64,000 nt of DNA. Origin: a virus. The position numbers and the translations under genes are program-made. The stretch's first letter is position 1; each line of letters starts with the position of its first letter. The stretch covers positions 62,001 through 126,000 of the IMG/VR virus record IMGVR_UViG_3300050821_001527; one strand, 5' to 3'. The notes below the pieces were generated by a model, which was not told where the DNA came from, ran no database searches, and worked only from the letters and a program-made list of their open reading frames with translations. This document shows, in pieces, positions 54,682 to 63,646 of the stretch.

Positions 54682-54755
54682 GCGGTAGTGGTGAAATAGT
54701 ATCACACGACGTTGCCAACGTTGAAGCGTCGGGGCAGAACCGACTTACCGCACCA
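54682..54755 (+). tRNA. tRNA-Gly(GCC)
   Basis: GCGGTAG/TTACCGC acceptor, ACCA encoded, anticodon loop TTGCCAA, all stems good. D-loop AATAGTA and T-loop GGCAGAA: A18-G19 with G55-C56, not the standard GG with TTC. Confidence 0.85.
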
Positions 54756-54833
54756 ATTACTTCTCGCAGGAGTGCGATGGGCCAATCCAAAAGGTTCGCC
54801 CGCTAAAAACTCCCCGTCCAACGACGGGCATAC

Positions 54834-54905
54834 ATCCAGTTGTTCAAGAGAACAATGCGAACTCCAAATCCGCAGAGCAGGGCGCGATACCTTGACTGGA
54901 TGCCA
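54834..54905 (+). tRNA. tRNA-Trp(CCA), short D-loop
   Basis: ATCCAGT/ACTGGAT, discriminator G, CCA. Anticodon loop CTCCAAA; stem with one mismatch. D-arm GTTC-AAGA-GAAC has only a 4-nt loop. T-loop CGCGATA (G55-C56). Confidence 0.7.
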
Positions 54906-54906
54906 T

Positions 54907-55386
54907 TTAATGAGGGTTGTGTTTGACGACCCTTTCGCATAGAGCGATAAACTCGTCAACCGAAAGGTCTTGTTTAGCGTAGTTCACTTCGCTAGTAACC
55001 AAGCCACAGTTCGCCAGAGATGATTCGCCGCCTTTTGAAACTGCGACGATATGGTCTAGGGAATAGGTTTCCGGCTTGGAAATGTCAATTCTTTCACCAG
55101 TAAGATAGCAGCGTGGCTCACTTCCGATTTTATCCTTGAGTTGTTGAACGGTGAATTTGACGACTTTTGGGCGCACAGAACTTCTTCGATTGCCCCTGTA
55201 AAACGTCGCAATCTTAGAAACGAGAGGATTAGTTTCTCGGTAGTTTTTGGTGTTCTTTTGCATAGAAAGCTTTCTGTTCGGGCTGAAACGGTAGATAAGA
55301 GTCCATTTTGAGATTCCGGTTTCCTTGGCAACCGCGTCATAGCTCATTCCGTCAGTAAGCATTTTTTGAATTTTTTCATCGTTCAT
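54907..55386 (-). CDS. HNH endonuclease in tRNA array
   Basis: 160 residues from ATG 55386, chosen because TAATAT (55392-55397) lies 5 nt upstream on this strand. An N-terminal helix-turn-helix-like part (MSYDAVAKETGISKWTLIYRF), then CYLTGERIDI...YSLDHIVAVSKGGESSLANCGLVTSEVNYAKQ: the HNH metal motif with DH, then N and N. It runs opposite to the tRNAs and its 3' end is 2 nt from tRNA-Trp. Probably a selfish homing enzyme within the array. Confidence 0.85.
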   Translation of the reverse strand: MNDEKIQKMLTDGMSYDAVAKETGISKWTLIYRFSPNRKLSMQKNTKNYRETNPLVSKIATFYRGNRRSSVRPKVVKFTVQQLKDKIGSEPRCYLTGERIDISKPETYSLDHIVAVSKGGESSLANCGLVTSEVNYAKQDLSVDEFIALCERVVKHNPH

Positions 55387-55437
55387 ACAAGATATTACAC
55401 TTGCAAATTGCCAGTGGGAACTTGCAATGACGATTTT

Positions 55438-55509
55438 GGGCGTGTGTAGAAGGCTACTGGTTTGCTTTGCAAGCAAATTGTCGGGGAGCGTTACCCCGCA
55501 TGTCCACCA
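55438..55509 (+). tRNA. tRNA-Ala(TGC)
   Basis: GGGCGTG/CATGTCC, ACCA; anticodon stem TTTGC/GCAAA, loop TTTGCAA. D-arm GTAG-AAGG-CTAC with a 4-nt loop. T-loop AGCGTTA (G55-C56). Confidence 0.8.
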
Positions 55510-55515
55510 ATTTTA

Positions 55516-55677
55516 CGGGTGTTGGCGAAAGTCAGTCAAGCTGACAGCGGAACCGTTAGAAAACCCGCCAAACGCAACCTCAAGTGTGGAGAATACTGGC
55601 TCATATAATTGCCTGAAAAGGCGATACAATGGGGGTTTTTAATGTCTCCTTGTGGGTATAACTCCCACACACCCGCC
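55516..55677 (+). tRNA. tRNA-like RNA with about 75-nt insertion, unresolved
   Basis: CGGGTGT pairs with ACACCCG before CCA, and GTGGG-TATAACT-CCCAC is a T-arm, but the span is 162 nt. An internal AAACCCGCCA at 55561-55570 repeats the 3' end pattern. Either a tRNA with an insertion or two nested tRNA remnants. Anticodon unassigned. Confidence 0.4.
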
Positions 55678-55997
55678 AATTTCAGTAGCATTAGCGGTTA
55701 AGGCAATACGATTAGTTACGTGAGCCTCCGTCCACAAGGTAGTGGGTATAATCAAGAAACAAGTGACTCGGTGCCTAAAAGGAGTCATCCCAATGAGCGG
55801 GCGAAAGCTTGTCGCGTTCACCGATTACAAGGTGCATTGGTGCGATAAATGCAGGGTGCGAATCCCAAGCTGAAAGTATTTCTATCGGCATCAACACAAT
55901 GAACACACCGGCTTAAATGAGTTTCATAACTATGTTGAGTTAGCCGCGTGGTGCTGGTGAGTCGGCGGGTAATCAATCCCGTATGGAGAAAAGTTTC
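55678..55997 (+). other. 320-nt segment without CDS, hairpin rich
   Basis: Contains strong hairpins, for example TGACTC/GAGTCA near 55763-55787 and TGCATT/AATGCA near 55833-55853, and a T-arm-like CAGGG-TGCGAAT-CCCAA near 55851. No CCA-ended cloverleaf resolved. May hold decayed or permuted tRNAs. Confidence 0.35.
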
Positions 55998-56071
55998 GGG
56001 GTTGTGGTTCAATAGCAGAACGGCGGATTCGCAATTCGCAGACGACGGCGCGATACCGTCCTACTCCACCA
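55998..56071 (+). tRNA. tRNA-Ala(CGC)
   Basis: GGGGTTG/CTACTCC with one U-U mismatch, ACCA. Anticodon loop TTCGCAA on GCGGA/TTCGC. D-loop AATAGCA, T-loop CGCGATA. Confidence 0.8.
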
Positions 56072-56075
56072 ATTT

Positions 56076-56158
56076 CAATTTCCGGCCTGCCGTTTGGGTG
56101 CGAGTCCCAAGTTTAAGCAAGTGAAAGCGGCTAACTAGCATAGGTCAATGGTCGGCCA
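56076..56158 (+). tRNA. Possible permuted tRNA-like element, unresolved
   Basis: A T-arm (TTGGG-TGCGAGT-CCCAA, 56094-56110) precedes a D-arm (CTA-ACTAGCA-TAG) and the ends CGGCC (56083-56087) and GGTCG (56150-56154) pair. This is the order expected of a permuted tRNA, but acceptor pairing is poor and the gap before the 3' stem is long. Confidence 0.3.
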
Positions 56159-56162
56159 ATTT

Positions 56163-56236
56163 GGGGTCATAGTTCAATAGTAGAACGCGAGGCTGGCAGT
56201 CTTGTAATCAGAGTGCGATTCTCTGTGGCTCCACCA
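56163..56236 (+). tRNA. tRNA-Ala(GGC)
   Basis: GGGGTCA/TGGCTCC, ACCA. Anticodon loop CTGGCAG on CGAGG/TCTTG. D-loop AATAGTA, T-loop TGCGATT. Confidence 0.8.
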
Positions 56237-56343
56237 ATTTCTGAAACGTTCGGGATGGTGTAACGCGCTTTGGCGGTTCATTCGCCATTGCGAACTTCCG
56301 TTGTATCGAGAGAAGCGAAACGGCGTTTCGGGCAAACTTTAAT

Positions 56344-56437
56344 GGCCGGTGTCCCCATCGGGAGTCTGTAAAACTTCTATGCTTACAAATGTGATGGGAA
56401 GTTGCACCGAAGGAGCGTTACCTTCACCGCGCCACCA
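56344..56437 (+). tRNA. tRNA-like, class II size, anticodon uncertain (TCT?)
   Basis: GGCCGGTG pairs with CACCGCGCC with one bulge, ACCA follows. D-arm TCCC-CATC-GGGA has a 4-nt loop; T-arm GAAGG-AGCGTTA-CCTTC is sound. The anticodon arm is weak; loop CTTCTAT would give TCT. Confidence 0.45.
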
Positions 56438-56651
56438 ATTTCTTCTTGACCGAAAACCAGACCTGTAAACCGAATGTCCCGGTAGGTTGCACGTATTGGT
56501 GAGTAAGAGGACACAGGAAGGAAAATTTTCATCCACTGGCGCACTGGCGCTAGTGCGAGATTCGGGGTGGGTGGCAATGAAGACCGAAGCCCCGACAACG
56601 CGAAACCTGCAAAAAGTGGTTTAACTACCGAGAGAGAGGACTCGGCGTAAT

Positions 56652-56727
56652 GGTGGTATTGATGTAATAGTTAGCATCTTCCCCTGTGAAGGGAACTGTG
56701 CGGGTGCGAATCCCGTATATCACCCCA
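56652..56727 (+). tRNA. tRNA-His(GTG) with encoded G-1
   Basis: GTGGTAT/ATATCAC with G-1 at 56652 opposite C73, the histidine identity pair, then CCA. Anticodon stem TTCCC/GGGAA, loop CTGTGAA. D-loop with AATAGTTA, T-loop TGCGAAT. Correct identity elements argue it is functional despite the odd elbow. Confidence 0.88.
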
Positions 56728-56767
56728 ATTTCATTCACGTAGAACATGAAAGTGTGTAATAAAAGTT

Positions 56768-57214
56768 ATGAGCAGCGTTGACTCACTCGAAAACCACGAC
56801 CAGTTCCATTTGGAACAACTGCACAAGCTTTCCTGTCAAAGCGGCTCGAAGGACATTCTCGTTATTGACGATAGCACGGGCGACTTGATGGACATTCAGA
56901 AGATTATGAACCTCAAGTATGCAGACCAATTTCACGTAAGGTATTGTCTGGACGCTGAAAAGGGGATTGAGATTCTCAAGGAAAACAATTTCTTTTTGGT
57001 TTTGCTCGATTTCAAGATGCCGAAGTTGAACGGTCTTGAAGTAATCGAGACGGTAAACAAGATGAAGCAGAACGTTCCGTTCGTAGTTTTGACGGGATAC
57101 GGCGACCCATCCATGCGCGAAGCATTGACAAGATTGGGCGTAATGCTCCTGTTGGACAAGCCAATCACGGAGAAGAAGCTGGACATGCTCCTGACTTTGA
57201 CTCACGCGAAATAA
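56768..57214 (+). CDS. CheY-like response regulator receiver protein
   Basis: 148 residues. Receiver fold from residue 28: ILVIDDSTGD (acidic pair), FFLVLLDFKMPKLNG (phospho-acceptor Asp), PFVVLTGYG (Thr), MLLLDKPI (Lys). No output domain. A 27-residue polar N-terminal extension. TAATAA ends 5 nt before ATG, so leaderless. Sits inside the tRNA array. It may sequester phosphoryl groups or tap into a host phosphorelay. Confidence 0.88.
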   Translation: MSSVDSLENHDQFHLEQLHKLSCQSGSKDILVIDDSTGDLMDIQKIMNLKYADQFHVRYCLDAEKGIEILKENNFFLVLLDFKMPKLNGLEVIETVNKMKQNVPFVVLTGYGDPSMREALTRLGVMLLLDKPITEKKLDMLLTLTHAK

Positions 57215-57219
57215 TTTCT

Positions 57220-57296
57220 GGCCGCATAGCTCAAATAGATAGAGCAGCACCCCGCGAAGGTGAAGGTTGTAGGTGCGACTCCTACTGTGGCTACCA
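57220..57296 (+). tRNA. tRNA-Arg(GCG), C33
   Basis: GGCCGCA/TGTGGCT, ACCA; D-stem GCTC/GAGC with loop AAATAGATA; T-arm GTAGG-TGCGACT-CCTAC. Anticodon loop CCGCGAA has C at position 33, where U is near universal. Confidence 0.78.
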
Positions 57297-57493
57297 TTTT
57301 CCCGCATAGTCCGTTGAGCAGCCCCGTAGCAACGAGGAAACAAAAGCTTGATGGTTCAGCCAAGCCGTGCGCCAGCGCGGTATTTGCGTGGTGCGAGTCC
57401 ACGGGGAACGATTTATCCCCCTGCTGGTATAGTCCAGCGAAGTAGGTGAGGCTAACCTATGAGTGGTTCGTAACGCACAAGAGGGAATTTTAT
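57297..57493 (+). other. 197-nt segment between tRNAs, T-arm-like and hairpin elements
   Basis: Holds CGTGG-TGCGAGT-CCACG (T-arm-like, 57388-57404) and CTGG-TATAGT-CCAG (D-arm-like, 57423-57436), in that order, without a CCA end. No full cloverleaf found. Confidence 0.35.
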
Positions 57494-57576
57494 GGGCATG
57501 TAACCGAAGCAGTCCTCGAAACTGATTAACCGTAATTATGTTGCAAATGTGGGTGAGATTCCCTCCATGCCTACCA
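57494..57576 (+). tRNA. tRNA, probable Arg(TCG), C33, D-arm unclear
   Basis: GGGCATG/CATGCCT, ACCA. Anticodon CAGT/ACTG with loop CCTCGAA. T-loop TGAGATT with one stem mismatch. The D region is too short for a normal arm and the variable region is long (about 23 nt). Confidence 0.5.
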
Positions 57577-57662
57577 ATTTCTCTGTTTGACAATCGAGCC
57601 TAAATAGTCTGCACAGACGGCGCGGGTTCGTAGATGTTGTGCGAAACGGAGGATTCATTTCT

Positions 57663-57755
57663 GTTCCCGTAGCTGAAAGACAGCCGGTGCCCTTATAAAG
57701 CACTTAATCGCTAGATTGGCGTAAGACTCAGGAGCGTTACCTGACGGGAATACCA
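57663..57755 (+). tRNA. tRNA, class II size, anticodon probably TAT
   Basis: GTTCCCG/CGGGAAT, ACCA; T-arm TCAGG-AGCGTTA-CCTGA; D-arm GCTG-AAAGA-CAGC. Anticodon stem GTGCC/AGCAC, loop CTTATAA. A stem-forming variable arm (about 20 nt) is odd for Ile. Confidence 0.6.
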
Positions 57756-57762
57756 AATTTTA

Positions 57763-57846
57763 CGCATCGTGACATAAGCGCGAATAGCACAGCCACACGT
57801 CTCAAAAATGTGAGTTTTAAGGGTGCGAGTCCCTTCGATGCGACCA
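57763..57846 (+). tRNA. tRNA-Leu(CAA), short variable loop
   Basis: CGCATCG/CGATGCG, ACCA; anticodon stem CACGT/ATGTG, loop CTCAAAA; T-arm AAGGG-TGCGAGT-CCCTT. Variable region only about 6 nt (AGTTTT). Confidence 0.75.
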
Positions 57847-57852
57847 ATTTAT

Positions 57853-57928
57853 GTGCCTATGATGGAATAGCATACATACCAGCCTCAGAAGTTGGGTTTT
57901 GCAGGTGCGAGTCCTGCTAGGCATACCA
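57853..57928 (+). tRNA. tRNA-Leu(CAG), short variable loop
   Basis: GTGCCTA/TAGGCAT, ACCA; D-stem ATG/CAT with GAATAGCATA; anticodon CCAGC/GTTGG, loop CTCAGAA; T-loop TGCGAGT; variable region GTTTT. Confidence 0.8.
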
Positions 57929-57933
57929 TTTCC

Positions 57934-58017
57934 CGCTCCGTGACCTTGTAGCGAACAGCACAGCTTGCCGTCTTAGACACGGTGGTTTTGCAGGTGCGAG
58001 TCCTGTCGGAGCGACCA
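57934..58017 (+). tRNA. tRNA-Leu(TAG), short variable loop
   Basis: CGCTCCG/CGGAGCG, ACCA; anticodon GCCGT/ACGGT, loop CTTAGAC; T-arm GCAGG-TGCGAGT-CCTGT; variable GGTTTT. The D region is longer than usual. Confidence 0.78.
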
Positions 58018-58022
58018 ATTTA

Positions 58023-58110
58023 GCCAGTGTGGTGAAAGAGCAGACACACCATCTTGAGAAGGTGGCGCGAATAAAGTAGCGTGTAGGTGCGAATCCTATC
58101 ACTGGCACCA
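58023..58110 (+). tRNA. tRNA-Leu(GAG), class II
   Basis: GCCAGTG/CACTGGC perfect, ACCA; D-stem GTG/CAC loop AAAGAGCAGA; anticodon CCATC/GGTGG, loop TTGAGAA; variable arm with CGC...GCG; T-loop TGCGAAT. Confidence 0.85.
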
Positions 58111-58192
58111 ATTTCCTAATGGAAGGTCTGTTAGGACACAGTAGCAGTCGAGATTCTAACCGCCTCGCCGGGGCGTTGCTACACGGCATTAC

Positions 58193-58267
58193 GGTCTATT
58201 GTTGAATGAGTTATCATAGTTCCCTGTCACGGAGCAATAACGGGTGCGAGTCCCGTATAGACCGCCA
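58193..58267 (+). tRNA. tRNA-Asp(GTC)
   Basis: GGTCTAT/ATAGACC, G73 as expected for Asp, CCA; anticodon GTTCC/GGAGC, loop CTGTCAC; D-loop ATGAGTTA, T-loop TGCGAGT. Confidence 0.83.
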
Positions 58268-58271
58268 TTTT

Positions 58272-58340
58272 ACGGCTGAGTTAGCGATTCCTGCGCGTGG
58301 GAACGAGACGATTCACTTCGTTTAACTGATGAAGCCGCCA
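58272..58340 (+). tRNA. Degenerate tRNA-like element
   Basis: CGGCT pairs with AGCCG before CCA; TTCC/GGAA and TTCA/TGAA stems inside with a TTTAACT stretch. Too few pairs for a firm tRNA; perhaps decayed. Confidence 0.35.
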
Positions 58341-58345
58341 ATTTT

Positions 58346-58422
58346 GGGATAGAAGGTAAAGTAGTGGAACCGTTCCGTTGTCTGCGGAAAAAAAGTGGGT
58401 GCGACTCCCATCTATCTCGCCA
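58346..58422 (+). tRNA. tRNA, probable Asp(GTC)
   Basis: GGGATAG/CTATCTC, G73, CCA; anticodon TTCCG/CGGAA, loop TTGTCTG; T-arm GTGGG-TGCGACT-CCCAT. D-stem GGT/ACC with an 11-nt loop. Confidence 0.7.
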
Positions 58423-58432
58423 TTTTGTCAGA

Positions 58433-58512
58433 GAAGTCCGTCAACCATGCGGTTGACCCGTATGGAGAACGTCGAGTTCAGACATATTGTATAGCTGGCC
58501 ACTTAGGACTTC
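58433..58512 (+). ncRNA. CCA-less four-arm structured element
   Basis: GAAGTCC (58433-58439) and GGACTTC (58506-58512) close a perfect 7-bp stem around a 7-bp hairpin GTCAACC-ATGC-GGTTGAC and a GAAC/GTTC hairpin. No CCA and no tRNA loops, but it occupies a tRNA slot. Confidence 0.4.
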
Positions 58513-58517
58513 CGTTC

Positions 58518-58595
58518 AGTCAGTGAGGGAGTAAGATAACCCCGACGCCTGCAAAGCGTTTCGTATAGTCGGAGCATTACCGACACTGACTTCCA
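58518..58595 (+). tRNA. tRNA-Cys(GCA)
   Basis: AGTCAGT/ACTGACT, U73 as required for Cys, CCA; D-stem GGG/CCC loop AGTAAGATAA; anticodon GACGC/GCGTT, loop CTGCAAA; T-loop AGCATTA. Confidence 0.85.
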
Positions 58596-58599
58596 TTTC

Positions 58600-58676
58600 G
58601 TCCTAATGGTGTAAGGGAATTACAACACGGTAGTCTTCGGACTACAGATGCAAGCCAACTATTGCAAGGGACTCCA
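58600..58676 (+). tRNA. tRNA, anticodon uncertain (TCG or TTC)
   Basis: GTCCT pairs with GGGAC, U73, CCA. Anticodon arm GTAGT/ACTAC closes only six nt (CTTCGG). T-arm TGCAA...TTGCA with GCCAACT loop. Reads as a diverged tRNA. Confidence 0.45.
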
Positions 58677-58680
58677 ATTT

Positions 58681-58757
58681 CGGTTTGTCGCCTAGTGTTC
58701 ATGGCACTCGCCTTGGGAGCGAGCATAACGCGGGTTAAAATCCCGCCAAGCCGACCA
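58681..58757 (+). tRNA. tRNA-Pro(TGG)
   Basis: CGGTTTG/CAAGCCG, ACCA; anticodon CTCGC/GCGAG, loop CTTGGGA; T-arm GCGGG-TTAAAAT-CCCGC (U55-A56) with D-loop TAGTGTTCAT (G18-U19), another matching pair. Confidence 0.82.
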
Positions 58758-58766
58758 TTTTTTAGA

Positions 58767-58843
58767 CGGGGTATAATGTCAGCAGCTAGACGGCTCCCTT
58801 CGGAGGGGAGAGGCCGTGGGTGCGAATCCCACTACCCCGACCA
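58767..58843 (+). tRNA. tRNA-Pro(CGG)
   Basis: CGGGGTA/TACCCCG perfect, ACCA; anticodon CTCCC/GGGAG, loop TTCGGAG; D-stem GTC/GAC loop AGCAGCTA; T-loop TGCGAAT. Confidence 0.83.
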
Positions 58844-58847
58844 TTTA

Positions 58848-58919
58848 TGCAGGAAGAATGAGATTCAAGCGGGCCTCATAAGCCTACCCCCGTGGACGCG
58901 ACTTCCACTCCTGCTTCCA
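58848..58919 (+). tRNA. tRNA, CAT anticodon (Met or Ile2)
   Basis: TGCAGGA/TCCTGCT with a 1-72 mismatch, then TCCA. Anticodon loop CTCATAA. D-arm GAAT-GAG-ATTC has a 3-nt loop. T-arm GTGGA-CGCGACT-TCCAC. Confidence 0.65.
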
Positions 58920-58947
58920 TTTTTTATCGAACAGAAACCGTTCTCCG

Positions 58948-58953
58948 ATATAA
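58948..58953 (+). promoter_or_regulatory. -10 box TATAAT inside array
   Basis: TATAAT lies 10 nt before tRNA 58964; the -35 is poor (ATCGAA at 17 nt). Possible internal array promoter. Confidence 0.4.
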
Positions 58954-58963
58954 TAGATATTTA

Positions 58964-59041
58964 CGCGGGGTGGACAAGTAGTAAGTCGTTGGCCTCATAA
59001 GCCAAATATCGTCAGGTGCGATTCCTGACCTCACGCAACCA
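58964..59041 (+). tRNA. tRNA-Met(CAT), possibly initiator
   Basis: CGCGGGG against CCTCACGCA with a bulge; C1 opposite A72 and A73 as in bacterial initiators. Anticodon TTGGC/GCCAA, loop CTCATAA, lacking the GGG/CCC initiator pairs. D-loop AAGTAGTAA, T-loop TGCGATT. Confidence 0.68.
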
Positions 59042-59044
59042 TTT

Positions 59045-59461
59045 ATGGAAGACGCCGTTCTCAACACGCAAAAAGCCTTGGACACCGCATTGGCATCATT
59101 GAATGCGCTGGCTAAAAAAGATTACGTTCCTCCGACAACCCCCGACATTGACCCCGAAACTGAAATGCCGATTAAAGGGAATGGCACGGAAGAATATGAT
59201 ACCGAAGACGCTTACGAGGATGGGGAAGAAGCAGTCCGTCTGTGCATTGAAATTGCCCAGTTGAGGCTAGAGGTCGAGGGCCAGCCCCGCCGTGCTATCG
59301 TCAACACGGAAAAGGCGGCAGAAATCCGAGCAAGGGGAGCGATTGACAAGGTAAGACCAGAGCGTCACCTGAGCGTTTCTCCCGAACTTATCAAGAGTAT
59401 CGAACATTCCGTAGCTAAACCGGAAATGATGTTCTTCGTTTTGGAAGAACCCAAGGAATAA
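59045..59461 (+). CDS. Unknown acidic protein in tRNA array
   Basis: 138 residues, very acidic (EEYDTEDAYEDGEEAV), helical. No family recognised. ATG is 4 nt after the CCA of tRNA-Met and its stop lies 7 nt before the next tRNA, so RNase processing would release it with a 3-nt leader. Confidence 0.6.
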   Translation: MEDAVLNTQKALDTALASLNALAKKDYVPPTTPDIDPETEMPIKGNGTEEYDTEDAYEDGEEAVRLCIEIAQLRLEVEGQPRRAIVNTEKAAEIRARGAIDKVRPERHLSVSPELIKSIEHSVAKPEMMFFVLEEPKE

Positions 59462-59467
59462 GATTTC

Positions 59468-59542
59468 GCGTTGTTGGCAGAGAAGTGATGCGCTTGCCTT
59501 CCAAGCAAGTTTAAGTGGGAGCATTACCCACACAACGCTCCA
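59468..59542 (+). tRNA. tRNA-Gly(TCC)
   Basis: GCGTTGT/ACAACGC perfect, U73, CCA; anticodon CTTGC/GCAAG, loop CTTCCAA; D-stem GCA/TGC loop GAGAAGTGA; T-loop AGCATTA. Confidence 0.85.
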
Positions 59543-59973
59543 ATTTGTCCGAAGCTATAATCCCCGTGCGTAATAGCACTAAGCGCAAGTAGGCCGAAAG
59601 GCAGAACCGTGATGGTGGATGAACTGCTCGTCTAAAATATCGGCTACATAATTTAGTCAGGTCGTCGGTCTGTCGTTGCGGTGAGCAATCACCAAGCCTA
59701 TGGGACGGCGGCTCGAAAAGGTATCCGTAAGCTGGCAGGAATCGCTTGTGCAAGATTCCACTACCGAAGGAGAATGCGGCGAAAGCCAAGTTCGTTCGCA
59801 CTTGTAGTAGGTCAGTCATCTCAGCCGAGGCAGGCATTTTCAAAATCGTTAGGGTTAGTCCAACCACGGTAAAACGTGAGAGGGGTCATAAAAGACTGCA
59901 AGCGTCACCCTGCCTAAAACCCCCTGTTGGTGAGTGGATAGTTGAAAACGAGGTCAGCGATGACCTGACTTTT
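59543..59973 (+). other. 431-nt segment without CDS, several hairpins
   Basis: Has GGAATC/GATTCC near 59739-59760 and AGGTCA-GCGA-TGACCT at 59951-59966, but no CCA-ended cloverleaf and no sound ORF. The longest rightward frame (59746-60072) runs through tRNA 59974. Could be a structured RNA or several decayed tRNAs. Confidence 0.4.
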
Positions 59974-60049
59974 AGCCGCATGGTGAAATTACAATCACAC
60001 AATCCTGCGAAGATTGAAGTCCCGGTGAGATTCCGGGTGCTGGCTACCA
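59974..60049 (+). tRNA. tRNA-Arg(GCG), second copy
   Basis: AGCCGCA against TGCTGGCT with a bulge, ACCA; D-stem GTGA/TCAC; anticodon CAATC/GATTG, loop CTGCGAA (U33 present); T-arm CCCGG-TGAGATT-CCGGG. Confidence 0.7.
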
Positions 60050-60053
60050 TTTT

Positions 60054-60128
60054 GCGACATAGGTGTTTATAGATACACGCGAGTCTTCCAAACTTGAGTA
60101 GTGAGTGCGATACTCACACGTCGCTCCA
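60054..60128 (+). tRNA. tRNA-Gly(TCC), second copy
   Basis: GCGACAT/ACGTCGC with one mismatch, U73, CCA; anticodon CGAGT/ACTTG, loop CTTCCAA; D-stem GTGT/ACAC loop TTATAGAT; T-loop TGCGATA. Confidence 0.8.
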
Positions 60129-60133
60129 ATTTA

Positions 60134-60186
60134 TGCACCCAAAACTTGCAAGTTACTCGACCCATGAATCGAGTGTGGTGCAACCA
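60134..60186 (+). tRNA. 53-nt mini tRNA-like hairpin cassette
   Basis: TGCACC pairs with GGTGCA before ACCA; between them AACTT/AAGTT and CTCGA-CCCATGAA-TCGAG hairpins. No T-arm. Either a truncated tRNA or a real T-armless one; loop includes CAT. Confidence 0.45.
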
Positions 60187-60192
60187 ATTTAT

Positions 60193-60267
60193 TCCCTAGT
60201 AGTGTCAAAGTAGCACGTCTCCCTGTTAAGGAGTTTAGTGTTGGTGCGAGTCCAACCTTCGGAACCA
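60193..60267 (+). tRNA. tRNA-Asn(GTT), acceptor mismatched
   Basis: TCCCTAG against CTTCGGA has two mismatches; ACCA. Anticodon loop CTGTTAA; D-stem GTG/CAC; T-arm GTTGG-TGCGAGT-CCAAC. Confidence 0.68.
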
Positions 60268-60279
60268 TTTAGTCAGCAT

Positions 60280-60364
60280 TCCAGAGTAGGAGAATTGGTA
60301 AACCCAGCGGACTGTTAATCCGCCGCGAAAGCAACTGCTCGTTCAAGTCGAGCCTCTGGAGCCA
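60280..60364 (+). tRNA. tRNA-Asn(GTT), canonical type
   Basis: TCCAGAG/CTCTGGA perfect, G73, CCA; anticodon GCGGA/TCCGC, loop CTGTTAA; D-loop AATTGGTAAA with GG and T-loop TTCAAGT: the standard elbow. Variable region 13 nt. Looks recently derived from a bacterial tRNA. Confidence 0.88.
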
Positions 60365-60376
60365 TTTTCAAGACAT

Positions 60377-60464
60377 TTCCCCTGACGAAAGCTCTACGAT
60401 GTAGAACATCGCACCAGCAAGTCATGGTTACATGACGTGTCCGTGGACGCACGGAAGCGGGGAG
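60377..60464 (+). ncRNA. CCA-less four-arm structured element
   Basis: TTCCCC and GGGGAG close three hairpins: CTAC-GAT-GTAG, GTCATG-GTTA-CATGAC, CCGTG-GACG-CACGG. A cloverleaf-like outline without tRNA loops or CCA. Confidence 0.4.
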
Positions 60465-60474
60465 TTTGAATTTT

Positions 60475-60552
60475 GCATCCGTCAACCAAACGCGTAAATG
60501 ACTCGGGCTTTTAACCCAAAGGATGTGGTCACGCAAGCCACCGGATGCACCA
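60475..60552 (+). tRNA. tRNA-Lys(TTT)
   Basis: GCATCCG/CGGATGC perfect, ACCA; anticodon loop CTTTTAA, stem with one mismatch; T-arm GTGGT-CACGCAA-GCCAC (A55-C56); D region holds CG at 18-19. Confidence 0.75.
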
Positions 60553-60670
60553 ATTTCTACCTGAACACAAGTGCTATGTCATCGAGCCAAGTCACGGTTA
60601 TTGTGTATCGTGAAAATTCCGTTGACAATGTAGCAATGCGCGAGAAAGACGCGCACGGGTTCCTTTTCAT

Positions 60671-60744
60671 AGGGATATAGTATAAAAGTAGAACGGCACC
60701 CTGACACGGTGAAGGCGAAGGAGCGTTACCTTCTATCCCTACCA
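60671..60744 (+). tRNA. tRNA-Val(GAC)
   Basis: AGGGATA/TATCCCT perfect, ACCA; anticodon GCACC/GGTGA, loop CTGACAC; D-loop AAAAGTA; T-arm GAAGG-AGCGTTA-CCTTC. Confidence 0.82.
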
Positions 60745-60749
60745 TTTTA

Positions 60750-60830
60750 TGAGAATCGAGACGCGGGTGCATATCCCGCCTGCCTGTTTAAATACTTGCA
60801 GTAGCTTAGTAGCAGAGCGCGATTCGTCTC
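60750..60830 (+). tRNA. Circularly permuted tRNA candidate A
   Basis: Order is 3' half then 5' half: AATCG (60754-60758), AGAC, T-arm GCGGG-TGCATAT-CCCGC, CTGCCTG, 8 nt, CTTGCAG, TA, D-arm GCTT-AGTAGCA-GAGC, G, CGATT (60820-60824). AATCG and CGATT make a 5-bp anticodon stem across the ends; four acceptor pairs next to the T-stem hold. D- and T-loops share the A18/G55 type, as expected if they belong to one tRNA. No CCA encoded. Confidence 0.5.
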
Positions 60831-60838
60831 CCTTTTAC

Positions 60839-60917
60839 GGAACGGTAACTCAAATGGGTCAAGAGTGTTCGCCCGATTAGCGAAAGGTTGTGGACTCCCA
60901 AGCCACTCGTTCTACCA
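60839..60917 (+). tRNA. tRNA-Ile(GAT), C33
   Basis: GGAACGG/TCGTTCT, ACCA; D-stem ACTC/GAGT loop AAATGGGTCAA (GG); anticodon TTCGC/GCGAA, loop CCGATTA with C33; T-loop CTCCCAA (U55-C56). Confidence 0.72.
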
Positions 60918-60922
60918 ATCAC

Positions 60923-60995
60923 GGTTCCATACGATAAAGCAGTCCCCATGCCCGATTAGCGTGGTGTCTTGGTGCGAGTCCAAGTGGAACTACCA
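60923..60995 (+). tRNA. tRNA-Ile(GAT), C33, second copy
   Basis: GGTTCCA/TGGAACT, ACCA; anticodon CATGC/GCGTG, loop CCGATTA; T-arm CTTGG-TGCGAGT-CCAAG; D-loop type AAAGCA. Confidence 0.75.
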
Positions 60996-61000
60996 TTTAC

Positions 61001-61076
61001 TGCCCTTTAGCTCATTCAGCAGAGCGGCGTCTTGATAAGGCGAAGGTGGTCGGGGCAGAGCCGACAAGGGCAACCA
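61001..61076 (+). tRNA. tRNA-Ile(GAT), U33
   Basis: TGCCCTT/AAGGGCA perfect, ACCA; D-stem GCTC/GAGC loop ATTCAGCA; anticodon loop TTGATAA; T-arm GTCGG-GGCAGAG-CCGAC. Confidence 0.83.
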
Positions 61077-61079
61077 ATT

Positions 61080-61244
61080 ATGAAACCATACGGATTGACA
61101 AAGAAAATCCTACACAACCATCCCGATGTTCACCCGCCGAAGGGCTGGGTCAACTGGTGGGAAAGCGAAACGAGGGACTGTCTCCGCAAGAAAGCAGAAC
61201 GCCAACAGGCGAAAAAACAGATTTTACAAGATTTGGCTTCGTAG
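61080..61244 (+). CDS. Small basic protein in tRNA array
   Basis: 54 residues: KPYGLTKKIL...PPKGWVNWWES, then a Lys/Gln/Arg helix. Unknown. ATG is 4 nt after the CCA of tRNA-Ile and its last codons overlap the first 10 nt of tRNA-Lys (61235). Confidence 0.6.
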   Translation: MKPYGLTKKILHNHPDVHPPKGWVNWWESETRDCLRKKAERQQAKKQILQDLAS

Positions 61245-61311
61245 CTCAAGCGTCAAGAGCAGCCGCCTTTTAAGCGGAAGCGTCCGGGCAGTCAATCCGG
61301 TGGGGCCACCA
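61235..61311 (+). tRNA. tRNA-Lys(TTT), second copy
   Basis: GGCTTCG/TGGGGCC (several G-U), ACCA; D-stem GCTC/GAGC loop AAGCGTCAA; anticodon GCCGC/GCGGA, loop CTTTTAA; T-arm CCGGG-CAGTCAA-TCCGG. Overlaps the preceding ORF. Confidence 0.75.
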
Positions 61312-61317
61312 ATTTAT

Positions 61318-61425
61318 AAACACCTAGACCGTGTGCGATACCGGCATGGTTTCGTGAGTCGGCTATGTCGAAGCCGAAGAAGATTCGCGGGACTTGGAGT
61401 GTGAAAGAAGCACGGGTGTATTTTT
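61318..61425 (+). ncRNA. Terminal stem plus U-run; tRNA-like internal arms
   Basis: ACACC near 61320 pairs with GGGTGT near 61415, followed by seven Ts; CGGCT-ATGTCGA-AGCCG is a 7-nt-loop hairpin inside. May be a terminator after the Ile-Lys group with a decayed tRNA inside. Confidence 0.4.
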
Positions 61426-61453
61426 TTGAATAAAAAGCGGATTCGTTTATCAT
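61426..61453 (+). promoter_or_regulatory. Promoter of gene 61458, leaderless
   Basis: TTGAAT (61426-61431), 16-nt spacer, TATCAT (61448-61453), only 4 nt to ATG. The start site falls on or inside the start codon. Confidence 0.68.
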
Positions 61454-61457
61454 AGGT

Positions 61458-61835
61458 ATGCAAAACGTTTATCTGAACCGCGACGAACTCCTGCCGATTG
61501 TCAAGGAGAACAAGCAAAAGCACGACAACATTTTTTCCACAGCCGTTTCCGGCTATTGGGTCAAGGCCGAAGAAATCCTGAACGGCAAACTGAACAAGGT
61601 CAAAGCCAAGCAGCAAGTTGACAATTACCTTGGACTCAGCTATCCCGAAGACCATTCTGATGAATATGACCGAGTAATCAGGATGCTGGAACTTTCGTCT
61701 GATGACAAGATTCAGCTTACGTCTTCCGAGTTTGATTGCTATGTTCGCAATCAATGGAACTGGCGCAAGGCGTTCTTGACGGTCAATTCAACATACATTT
61801 CGGACTGGAACCCCATTTCCGGGGCTTCATTCTAA
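61458..61835 (+). CDS. Unknown protein in tRNA array
   Basis: 125 residues, helical, charged; NRDELLPIVKENKQKHDNIF and EEILNGKLNKVKAKQQVDNYLGLSYPEDH. Similar wording occurs in small phage proteins but I cannot name the family. Own leaderless promoter. Its stop overlaps the outer helix of permuted tRNA B. Confidence 0.6.
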   Translation: MQNVYLNRDELLPIVKENKQKHDNIFSTAVSGYWVKAEEILNGKLNKVKAKQQVDNYLGLSYPEDHSDEYDRVIRMLELSSDDKIQLTSSEFDCYVRNQWNWRKAFLTVNSTYISDWNPISGASF

Positions 61836-61916
61836 CAGTCTTGGTCGAGGCGTGGGTTCGATTCCGCCGTGTGGCTCCATGCCGCACGTAGCTTAGTGGC
61901 AGAGCGCGACCTGTTC
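61834..61916 (+). tRNA. Circularly permuted tRNA candidate B
   Basis: Order: GGTCG (61843-61847), AGGC, T-arm with canonical loop TTCGATT, GTGTGGC (61869-61875), T, CCA (61877-61879), one nt, GCCGCAC (61881-61887), then D-arm GCTT-AGTGGCA-GAGC, G, CGACC (61907-61911). The acceptor (7 bp) and anticodon stem (5 bp) pair perfectly across the halves. Outside, AACA and TGTT form a second helix across a 5-nt bulge, a bulge-helix-like junction. The T-stem has two mismatches. Anticodon not determinable before splicing is known. Confidence 0.6.
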
Positions 61917-61991
61917 GGGGCTATGGTGCAGAAGTAAGCACGTTAGGTTCTCAACCTGAAAACGTCGGAGCGTTACCGACTAGCCCTACCA
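61917..61991 (+). tRNA. tRNA-Glu(CTC)
   Basis: GGGGCTA/TAGCCCT, ACCA; D-stem GTGC/GCAC loop AGAAGTAA; anticodon TTAGG/CCTGA, loop TTCTCAA; T-arm GTCGG-AGCGTTA-CCGAC. Confidence 0.84.
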
Positions 61992-61997
61992 ATTTAC

Positions 61998-62073
61998 GGG
62001 GGAGTGGTGCATAAGTAAGCACGGTTGGCTTTCACCCAGCAGAAGCTCGGAGCGTTACCGGCCTCCCCTACCA
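61998..62073 (+). tRNA. tRNA-Glu(TTC)
   Basis: GGGGGAG/CTCCCCT, ACCA; D-stem GTGC/GCAC loop ATAAGTAA; anticodon GTTGG/CCAGC, loop CTTTCAC; T-loop AGCGTTA with one stem mismatch. Confidence 0.82.
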
Positions 62074-62078
62074 TTTCT

Positions 62079-62156
62079 GTAGCTGACCAGTAAGTCGTCG
62101 TCTGCTCTGGCTTTCAACCAGATGTGTAGTGGGTGCGAGTCCCACCAGCTATGCCA
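62079..62156 (+). tRNA. tRNA-Glu(TTC), second copy
   Basis: GTAGCTG/CAGCTAT, G73, CCA; anticodon TCTGG/CCAGA, loop CTTTCAA; T-arm GTGGG-TGCGAGT-CCCAC. The D region is irregular. Confidence 0.75.
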
Positions 62157-62161
62157 TTTCC

Positions 62162-62216
62162 GGGGTGCGCCTCGTCAATTCGTTGATAGGACGGCGAATA
62201 TATCACCCCACTTTTT
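62162..62216 (+). terminator. Rod-like hairpin followed by U-run
   Basis: GGGGTG (62162-62167) and CACCCC (62204-62209) enclose CGCC/GGCG and TCAA-TTCG-TTGA; ACTTTTT follows. Could terminate or separate array transcripts. Confidence 0.5.
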
Positions 62217-62219
62217 CTC

Positions 62220-62297
62220 GGTTCCGTGGTGTAAATGGATTAAGCACAAGAGACTTTGACCCTCTTAGCTCCGGGTGCCAGCCGGACGGAACTGCCA
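62220..62297 (+). tRNA. tRNA-Gln(TTG)
   Basis: GGTTCCG/CGGAACT, G73, CCA; D-stem GTGT/GCAC loop AAATGGATTAA (GG); anticodon AGAGA/CCTCT with one mismatch, loop CTTTGAC; T-arm TCCGG-GTGCCAG-CCGGA (U55). Confidence 0.75.
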
Positions 62298-62304
62298 TTT
62301 TTAT

Positions 62305-62380
62305 TCCCTCTTGGATTGTAATAGTAGCAACTCGGGCTTTGAACCCGAAAGCGGTGGGGCAGAACCATCAGAGGGAGCCA
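62305..62380 (+). tRNA. tRNA-Gln(TTG), second copy
   Basis: TCCCTCT/AGAGGGA perfect, G73, CCA; anticodon TCGGG/CCCGA, loop CTTTGAA; D-stem TTG/CAA loop TAATAGTAG; T-loop GGCAGAA. Confidence 0.83.
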
Positions 62381-62385
62381 TTTAT

Positions 62386-62456
62386 CGGGGTAAGGGTGTA
62401 TTCGTGTAACGACCACTCGGAAGGAGTCTGGAAGCTTACGGACAAACTTCGTCCCC
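62386..62456 (+). ncRNA. CCA-less structured element
   Basis: GGGG (62387-62390) pairs with CCCC (62453-62456); ACTC-GGAAG-GAGT hairpin at 62415-62427 and a GTC/GAC arm follow. Third example of a CCA-less element in a tRNA slot. Confidence 0.35.
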
Positions 62457-62465
62457 ATCTATTTT

Positions 62466-62541
62466 CGGAGTGTATTGTCAACAGCAGACGGCCCGCCTTG
62501 GAAGTGGGAGGTAGTTGGGGCAGCACCAACCATTCCGACCA
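62466..62541 (+). tRNA. tRNA-Pro(TGG), second copy
   Basis: CGGAGTG/CATTCCG, ACCA; D-stem GTC/GAC loop AACAGCA; anticodon CCCGC/GTGGG, loop CTTGGAA; T-arm GTTGG-GGCAGCA-CCAAC. Confidence 0.82.
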
Positions 62542-62545
62542 ATTT

Positions 62546-62728
62546 ATGAACACTGAAAAAATCGTAGGTCAAGAATATCCAGCCGAATGTCTCGTTGATT
62601 CCAAGACGGGTCTGCCGGTGATGATTCGTCATACCGAAGATTCGGACAGGATTCGTCAGTTGGCGAAGGCCAGCGCGGAGAACCTTCTGAGGGCTTTGCG
62701 AGACGAAACGGGGCTGACGCCCATTTAA
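62546..62728 (+). CDS. Small unknown protein in tRNA array
   Basis: 60 residues (NTEKIVGQEYPAECLVDSKTGLPV...), alpha/beta then helix. ATG 4 nt after the CCA of tRNA-Pro, stop 6 nt before tRNA-Arg. The frame opens at 62129 but that part is tRNA. Unknown. Confidence 0.6.
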   Translation: MNTEKIVGQEYPAECLVDSKTGLPVMIRHTEDSDRIRQLAKASAENLLRALRDETGLTPI

Positions 62729-62733
62729 TTTAC

Positions 62734-62809
62734 GGGTCTATAACTCAAATAGATAGAGCCTCGCCTTCTAAGCGATGGGATTCAGGTGCGACTCCTGATA
62801 GACCTACCA
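62734..62809 (+). tRNA. tRNA-Arg(TCT)
   Basis: GGGTCTA/TAGACCT, ACCA; D-loop AAATAGATA; anticodon CTCGC/GCGAT, loop CTTCTAA; T-arm TCAGG-TGCGACT-CCTGA. Confidence 0.82.
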
Positions 62810-62832
62810 TTTCTAGTATAGCCACATGGCGT

Positions 62833-62861
62833 TTCACAAGTGCTTCAACTAGGTGTAATTC
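62833..62861 (+). promoter_or_regulatory. Promoter of second HNH gene, leaderless
   Basis: TTCACA (62833-62838), 17-nt spacer, TAATTC (62856-62861), 5 nt, ATG. Confidence 0.6.
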
Positions 62862-62866
62862 TAGGT

Positions 62867-63343
62867 ATGGGCCACAAAGCTACAAACGAACAACTGGCGG
62901 TTATTATCGCAGAGTCTATTTCCTTCTCTGAGGCAATGAGAAAATGCGATATGAAGCCAAGGGGAGCGTCTTACCAATGGTTTCAAAAACGAGTTAAGAA
63001 GCTCGGATTAGACACGTCTCATTTTAAGGGATACTCGGCTGGTGGTCTGGAAAGGGCCAAGCAGATAAAGAAGCATTGGTCGGAGATTCTTGTTTTAGGA
63101 GACGGTTCGGGCAGAGAAAGGTCAGAGCCTCTTAGGAGGGCTTTTAAAGAATACTGCTTAGAGCAGGCAGTCCCACATATTTGCAACGTCTGCAACGTCT
63201 GCAAGATGGAACCAATTTGGAATGGCCAGCCAATGATATTTCAAATTGACCACATCAATTCAATCAATTTCGATAACAGACCGCTGAACCTTCAATGGAT
63301 TTGCGGCAACTGTCATCAACAGAAAAATTCTAACGGCTACTAA
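62867..63343 (+). CDS. HNH endonuclease in tRNA array
   Basis: 158 residues from ATG 62867, which fits the promoter; the frame opens at 62840. N-terminal HTH-like segment (SISFSEAMRKCDMKPRGASYQWFQKR), then CNVCNVC, FQIDHINSINFDNRPLNLQWICGNCHQQK: HNH core with a zinc-binding Cys set. Unrelated in detail to the HNH at 54907-55386. Its last 9 nt form the 5' acceptor strand of tRNA-Phe, so insertion preserved that tRNA. Confidence 0.88.
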   Translation: MGHKATNEQLAVIIAESISFSEAMRKCDMKPRGASYQWFQKRVKKLGLDTSHFKGYSAGGLERAKQIKKHWSEILVLGDGSGRERSEPLRRAFKEYCLEQAVPHICNVCNVCKMEPIWNGQPMIFQIDHINSINFDNRPLNLQWICGNCHQQKNSNGY

Positions 63344-63410
63344 GCTAATCAAGTGAAAGCAGCGGACTGAAAATCCGTGGAGTTTGGCGCGATACCAAAA
63401 GTAGCCACCA
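63335..63410 (+). tRNA. tRNA-Phe(GAA)
   Basis: GGCTACT/AGTAGCC perfect, ACCA; D-stem GCT/AGC loop AATCAAGTGAA; anticodon GCGGA/TCCGT, loop CTGAAAA; T-arm TTTGG-CGCGATA-CCAAA. Overlaps HNH stop codon. Confidence 0.84.
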
Positions 63411-63567: not shown

Positions 63568-63646
63568 CCGTCAGTAGCTCAAATGTGGTAAGAGCGTTGG
63601 TTTGAAACACCAAAGGTTGTCGTTCCCCAAACGACTTGACGGGCCA
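63568..63646 (+). tRNA. tRNA-Phe(GAA), second copy
   Basis: CCGTCAG/TTGACGG, G73, CCA; D-stem GCTC/GAGC loop AAATGTGGTAA (GG); anticodon TTGGT/ACCAA, loop TTGAAAC; T-arm GTCGT-TCCCCAA-ACGAC. Its 3' strand supplies TTGACG for the next gene's promoter. Confidence 0.78.

Follow-up and report, generated by a model that had tools for sequence, protein, structure and literature searches.

The window, i.e. the whole stretch of 64,000 nucleotides analysed here, comprises bases 62,001-126,000 of the 202,882-base IMG/VR virus record IMGVR_UViG_3300050821_001527. Since a phage-type DNA polymerase, a DnaB-like helicase and a ribonucleotide reductase are encoded in the window, the record is assigned to a large bacteriophage. 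An array of tRNA genes, all on the + strand, begins near 54.7 kb of the window and continues for about 8 kb past its end, and in most of these genes the elbow contact between D-loop and T-loop is spelled A18-G55 instead of G18-U55 (elbow positions as in PMC7912444). ARAGORN finds 16 tRNAs and one tmRNA in the window and Rfam 18 tRNAs at gathering score, while both combined with a cloverleaf scanner give 32 array tRNAs. All tRNA genes cited in an initial annotation of this DNA exist, the scanner retrieves them with the loops given there, and the annotation's expectation that standard finders would score them poorly holds in part: about half are missed, but 16 to 18 of about 32 are detected.

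G55 is present in 26 of the 32 array tRNAs, and at least 24 of these 26 have A18-G19, which exceeds the 21 or more tRNAs with A18-G19 and G55-C56 initially reported. All strict-scan matches with D-loops of seven nucleotides, in which 18/19 can be placed in a single way, display A18-G19 together with G55-C56; a clear exception among the G55 tRNAs is 62079 (D-loop AAGTCGTCG), having C18-G19. The T-loops fall into the families UGCGANU, AGCRUUA, GGCAGAA and CGCGAUA, distinguished by positions 54 and 58. A weak extra candidate at 55438 (AAGGCTA / AGCGTTA) does not match the A18-G19 pattern. Six array tRNAs are without G55 (58681, 60280, 60839, 61235, 62220 and 63568), among them 60280 with G18-G19 and U55 and Pro 58681 with G18-U19 and U55-A56, both as first described. 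Two Lys tRNAs had been read as C18-G19 with A55. In Lys 61235, A55 is correct and C18-G19 possible, but U18-C19 can also be read and A55 is followed by G56, while the second one, Lys 64190 (record 126,190; at about 190 of locus L001), lies just past the window end and actually combines G18-C19 with C55-G56, so that the 19-56 pair is inverted. The features are listed below in window coordinates, each with strand, identity and D-loop / T-loop.

54682..54755, +, tRNA-Gly(GCC), AATAGTA (A18-G19) / GGCAGAA (G54, G55, C56, G58)
55998..56071, +, tRNA-Ala(CGC), AATAGCA / CGCGATA
56163..56236, +, tRNA-Ala(GGC), AATAGTA / TGCGATT, G3:U70 retained
56653..56727, +, tRNA-His(GTG), AATAGTTA / TGCGAAT, C73
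57220..57296, +, tRNA-Arg(GCG), AAATAGATA / TGCGACT
57853..57928, +, tRNA-Leu(CAG), AATAGCAT / TGCGAGT
58023..58110, +, tRNA-Leu(GAG), AAGAGCAG / TGCGAAT
58193..58267, +, tRNA-Asp(GTC), ATGAGTTA / TGCGAGT, G73
58346..58422, +, tRNA-Asp(GTC), AAGTAGTGG / TGCGACT
58518..58595, +, tRNA-Cys(GCA), GTAAGATA / AGCATTA, U73
58681..58757, +, tRNA-Pro(TGG), contrast case, AGTGTTCA / TTAAAAT, G18-U19 with U55-A56
58964..59036, +, tRNA-Met(CAT), AAGTAGTAA / TGCGATT
59468..59542, +, tRNA-Gly(TCC), AGAAGTG / AGCATTA (A54, U58)
60193..60267, +, tRNA-Asn(GTT), A18-G19 / TGCGAGT
60280..60364, +, tRNA-Asn(GTT), contrast case, G18-G19 / TTCAAGT (U55)
60671..60744, +, tRNA-Val(GAC), AAAAGTA / AGCGTTA
61001..61076, +, tRNA-Ile(GAT), ATTCAGCA / GGCAGAG
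61235..61311, +, tRNA-Lys(TTT), AAGCGTCAA (ambiguous D-loop) / CAGTCAA, A55-G56
61917..61991, +, tRNA-Glu(CTC), AGAAGTAA / AGCGTTA
61998..62073, +, tRNA-Glu(TTC), ATAAGTAA / AGCGTTA
62307..62380, +, tRNA-Gln(TTG), AATAGTA / GGCAGAA
62734..62809, +, tRNA-Arg(TCT), AAATAGATA / TGCGACT
63335..63410, +, tRNA-Phe(GAA), ATCAAGTGA / CGCGATA
63568..63646, +, tRNA-Phe(GAA), third loop type, AAATGTGGTAA with G-G / TCCCCAA, C55-C56
46618..47001, +, tmRNA, internal contrast, canonical U55-C56 T-loop TTCAACT

The cloverleaf scanner relies on stems, an encoded CCA and certain individual bases (U8, A14, A21, U33), is blind to D-loop positions 18-20 and to the T-loop, and returned no cloverleaf from 301 kb of shuffled DNA. 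Its application to 43 DNA-polymerase relatives, to two pattern scans of viral contigs and to one of bacterial genome contigs yielded 2,277 distinct tRNAs (1,680 viral and 597 cellular). The pattern scans bias the T-loops sampled, not the D-loops, and the polymerase relatives were picked without any T-loop pattern; the bacterial pattern needed an encoded CCA followed by an (A)TTT trailer, so that lineages without these would be missed. The 18/19 register is fixed in D-loops of seven nucleotides and inferred in longer ones. Within the fixed-register loops, 18/55 is A-G in 352 tRNAs, G-U in 310, G-C in 6 and other in 33, which divides into 184, 287, 6 and 12 for viral and 168 A-G, 23 G-U and 21 others for cellular sequences.

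Positions 18 and 55 thus change together, as had been proposed, and the covariation check set beforehand was passed far above chance. Already for the first 257 seven-nucleotide loops, Fisher's test gives p = 1e-65. Among 466 non-redundant sequences, the mutual information of 18-55 reaches z = 152 and rank 20 of all column pairs, preceded only by 18 helix pairs and 54-58, while 19-56, 8-14 and 15-48 are recovered by the same analysis at lower rank. A tree that omits both loops contains 25 independent, supported pairs with different bases at position 18; position 55 shifts concordantly in 24.3 of these on average and oppositely in none (p about 1e-7). Likewise, 14 of 17 near-identical tRNA pairs differing at position 55 carry the matching change at 18. 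Since the intermediate G18-G55 occurs 14 times and A18-U55 once, the sequences suggest that position 55 changes before position 18. For the outer pair 19-56, G-C predominates, and the additional presence of A-U, U-A and C-G indicates covariation by Watson-Crick rules, which agrees with the joint change initially claimed for these positions as well; Pro 58681 is one example of such a swap, and A19-U56 is also found in isolated phages with canonical arrays.

Judged by their sequences, the array tRNAs are real translation-type tRNAs and not decayed copies. The 1,057 G55 tRNAs serve all 20 amino acids and have a cloverleaf with paired stems and a 3' CCA, while A18-G55 takes the place of the G18-U55 contact, which is near-universal but not strictly defining for a functional tRNA. 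G3:U70 is found in 30 of 30 alanine G55 tRNAs versus 3 of 1,027 others, and the discriminator bases are U73 in 50/50 Cys, G73 in 49/49 Asp, G73 in 50/51 Asn and C73 in 36/43 His tRNAs. U33 is slightly relaxed in the G55 class (0.89 vs 0.98), and 54/58 is varied (U-A, A-U, G-G, C-A). In one Bdellovibrionales genome, the sole tRNA-Cys found is of A18/G55 type, so this elbow must decode there if the assembly misses no second tRNA-Cys. Typing covered every ordinary-length tRNA match and some long ones of this incomplete assembly, which shows no tRNA-Ile(GAU); hence, the argument that the A18/G55 tRNA-Cys decodes is strong without being final. The A18/G55 type was also seen in a tRNA-Cys of Peregrinibacteria. 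Lone, housekeeping-like tRNA-Cys or tRNA-Gly of this type were also seen outside arrays (L445, L449, L263, L284, L232, L236), in genomes of Bdellovibrionales, Peregrinibacteria, Omnitrophota, Deltaproteobacteria and other Patescibacteria.

Among cells, A18-G55 arrays are tied to Verrucomicrobiota, where they often stand beside RNA-repair genes. Of 55 bacterial genome loci that contain three or more G55 tRNAs, 54 belong to this phylum, including the isolates Chthoniobacter flavus Ellin428, Geminisphaera colitermitum TAV2 and Verrucomicrobium, and 39 of 48 cellular array loci consist of G55 tRNAs to at least 90%. In a sample of 388 genomes of the phylum, about a dozen have an array, each mainly as a single-strand cluster, and most have none. 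Three of those fetched sit in single contigs of 5.7-6.0 Mb. Near-complete second sets comprise 27 tRNAs in G152, 25 in G383 and 22 in Geminisphaera, and tRNA order within arrays is conserved between species. The three array-bearing isolates checked have 58-68 tRNA matches per genome, many of them ordinary (60-77 bits) and outside the array. In Opitutales-like genomes, the array is followed by a gene for an unknown protein, a FliA/WhiG-like sigma factor, an unknown protein or AAA ATPase, and RtcB, while a divergent LysR gene lies at the 5' end of the array. The two unknown protein families gave no Pfam or NCBIfam match. TROVE (Ro60) is encoded inside or adjoining the array in several Opitutales-like genomes. 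Overall, RtcB or TROVE occurs in 16 of 55 array loci versus 1 of 60 other loci, counted in 8-kb stretches that undercount neighbour genes. The operon with array, sigma factor and RtcB was seen at L410, L411, L412, L413, L199 and L231.

Distribution among phages is patchier. DNA-polymerase relatives of the phage include one with a fully converted array (G004, 18 of 18 G55), one with a mixed array (G042) and several with canonical arrays (G006, G012, G014, G021, G036, G038); hence, the elbow type switches inside a single group of phages. Among about 92 tRNAs of five further phage records, none has the G55 elbow, one unreadable arm aside, which rules it out as a general phage trait. One canonical case is Streptomyces phage Blueeyedbeauty, where a Ro-like gene, tRNAs, a tmRNA and Band-7 occur together. 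Where checked, BLASTN matches of the arrays in isolated phages and plasmids were to ordinary tRNAs only. The phage studied here encodes its own RtcB (record 155,297-156,466; 363 bits) and a Band-7 protein (record 141,040-142,059). No clear defence gene emerged from PADLOC models among the proteins tried.

Covariation, intact identity elements, a sole tRNA-Cys, operon context and a phage RtcB are established by the analysis, and the explanation which we favour with moderate confidence is that the arrays are backup sets whose tRNAs have an alternative elbow and serve when the normal ones are damaged. G18-Psi55, formed with pseudouridine, is taught as a near-universal tRNA contact; TruB targets U55, TrmH G18 and TrmA U54. 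With A18-G55 in place of this pair, the target bases of TruB and TrmH, and often that of TrmA, are removed. Therefore, the spare tRNAs probably fold and work without these marks and may evade factors which read G18-Psi55. The outer 19-56 pair, a platform for RNase P and the ribosome, is kept as G19-C56 or swapped for another Watson-Crick pair. Some Verrucomicrobiota hold near-complete sets of such tRNAs in one operon with RtcB ligase, TROVE/Ro60 and a dedicated sigma factor, and arrays of this kind are found in large phages too, in the present one along with RtcB and a Band-7 protein. Once the ordinary tRNA pool is destroyed or disabled by a defence nuclease, toxin or other stress, the backup set could then sustain translation; that the sets are expressed under stress, and that escape was what selection favoured, is what we infer. 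More tentatively, and with somewhat more doubt than belief, A18-G55 may be regarded as a second, naturally occurring dialect of the tRNA elbow, kept in Verrucomicrobiota reserve sets and shared with phages, which would provide a pool spared by elbow-reading modification enzymes, toxins and defence nucleases.

Several points weigh against the backup explanation. Close DNA-polymerase relatives (59-62% identity) have canonical arrays, and since arrays of other phages, one with Ro-like and Band-7 genes, are canonical too, a backup function does not require the swap. In the phage, RtcB does not adjoin the array: about 21 kb separate it from the last array tRNA upstream. With regard to escape, AriB cleavage does not need Psi55 (PMC12409363), and known tRNA evasion by phages acts via the anticodon loop (PMC10264068).

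Drift is the alternative to be considered most seriously, although it appears rather unlikely: A18-G55 would be structurally equivalent to the canonical pair and reached by a compensated double change in weakly constrained accessory tRNAs, with no function of its own. The asymmetric intermediates fit such a stepwise path, 54/58 is relaxed in the G55 class as well, and mixed arrays occur. One would hardly expect drift to convert sets this completely, though, given that entire arrays have switched across all 20 amino acids (the cellular loci and G004 above) while many other phage arrays remain canonical; moreover, the tmRNA of the same phage retains U55. Its predicted tag is ANKVALRNAVDCGVVRGFAAFAMA, without the usual ALAA end.

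A role as decoys, sponges or donors for non-protein amino-acid use is improbable. The staphylococcal cell-wall tRNA-Gly has G55 for U55 and has lost the G18-G19 motif, but it is a non-translational tRNA for glycine only; the array type, by contrast, spans 20 amino acids, and A18 and G55 covary specifically. TROVE proteins partner tRNA-like RNAs elsewhere (PMC7824862), which would also suit such a role, yet the cognate identity elements, the encoded CCA, U33 in 89% of the G55 class and the sole tRNA-Cys of a bacterial genome all speak for decoding. That the phage simply copies the ordinary tRNAs of its host could be suggested by the near confinement of cellular arrays to one phylum, but the ordinary tRNAs outside the arrays of Verrucomicrobiota isolates and the many genomes of this phylum without any array make it very improbable. 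Least credible is an artefact of pseudogenes or D-loop misalignment. While variable D-loop lengths could misplace 18/19 in longer loops, the fixed-register loops alone yield the covariation, stems covary and identity elements are intact, by which this reading was refuted.

Several known systems resemble the proposed backup sets in part. The trn operon of Anabaena sp. PCC 7120 comprises 26 tRNAs on plasmid delta, is silent, and upon induction by translational stress improves survival; rtcB and the genes for a slipin (Band-7) and an AAA ATPase are likewise under the RHH repressor TrcR, which silences them (PMC10272220). Array-bearing Verrucomicrobiota similarly possess a dense second tRNA set beside an ordinary housekeeping set, and their operon would join spare tRNAs with repair. 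Control in Anabaena is by TrcR; a LysR regulator and a sigma factor were found adjoining the Verrucomicrobiota arrays. The text of PMC10272220 describes no elbow change. Bacterial RNA-repair operons (RtcB, TROVE/Rsr, tRNA-like cofactors) are paralleled by RtcB and TROVE in or adjoining Verrucomicrobiota arrays and by RtcB and Band-7 in the phage, but they differ from the Verrucomicrobiota operon with its near-full set of altered-elbow tRNAs and its sigma factor gene. Some phage tRNAs withstand anticodon nucleases, as in T5 against PARIS (PMC12409363; PMC10264068), and substitute for host tRNAs under attack. Evasion of the known type depends on the anticodon loop or on supply, in contrast to the elbow change that affects nearly every tRNA of the present array. 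Suppressor tRNAs obtained from D/T-loop libraries (Zagryadskaya, Steinberg) reportedly tolerate alternatives in the 54-58 pair, including G54-G58, and in D/T contacts, and it is possible that A18-G55 was already seen in such selections. These are laboratory selections of one suppressor, in contrast to a natural switch repeated in many tRNAs. The natural tRNA-Pyl and mitochondrial tRNAs without G18-G19/TPsiC pairing (PMC7609411) lose or rebuild the elbow otherwise, whereas here it is kept with a new pair.

A repeated and coordinated natural replacement in hundreds of tRNAs shows that there is a defined way of rebuilding the elbow, and it allows the roles of the elbow and of its modifications (Psi55, Gm18, m5U54) to be tested on a natural example. 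A possible arms race around the integrity of tRNAs is indicated as well. Standard finders undercount tRNAs in such genomes, and the array tRNAs provide natural parts for orthogonal tRNAs.

Some further observations concern the array itself. Apparent orphan 3' halves at least partly resemble tRNAs with more mismatches. A third T-loop class, ending in C58-A59-A60/G60 and combined with long D-loops, is present at 60839, 61235, 62220 and 63568 of the window and at record 126,190 (TCCCCAA, TCGTCAA, CAGTCAA, CTCCCAA and GTGCCAG), with similar loops in the viral loci L008, L087 and L097. In several array tRNAs (57220, 60839, 60923), C33 replaces the nearly invariant U33. Two small genes lie within the array (54907-55476 and 56768-57214), with a weak HNH endonuclease match and a response-regulator receiver domain. 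In nearly all array tRNAs between 54600 and 64000 of the window, the encoded CCA is followed by TTT or ATTT, a trailer which is perhaps a processing signal.

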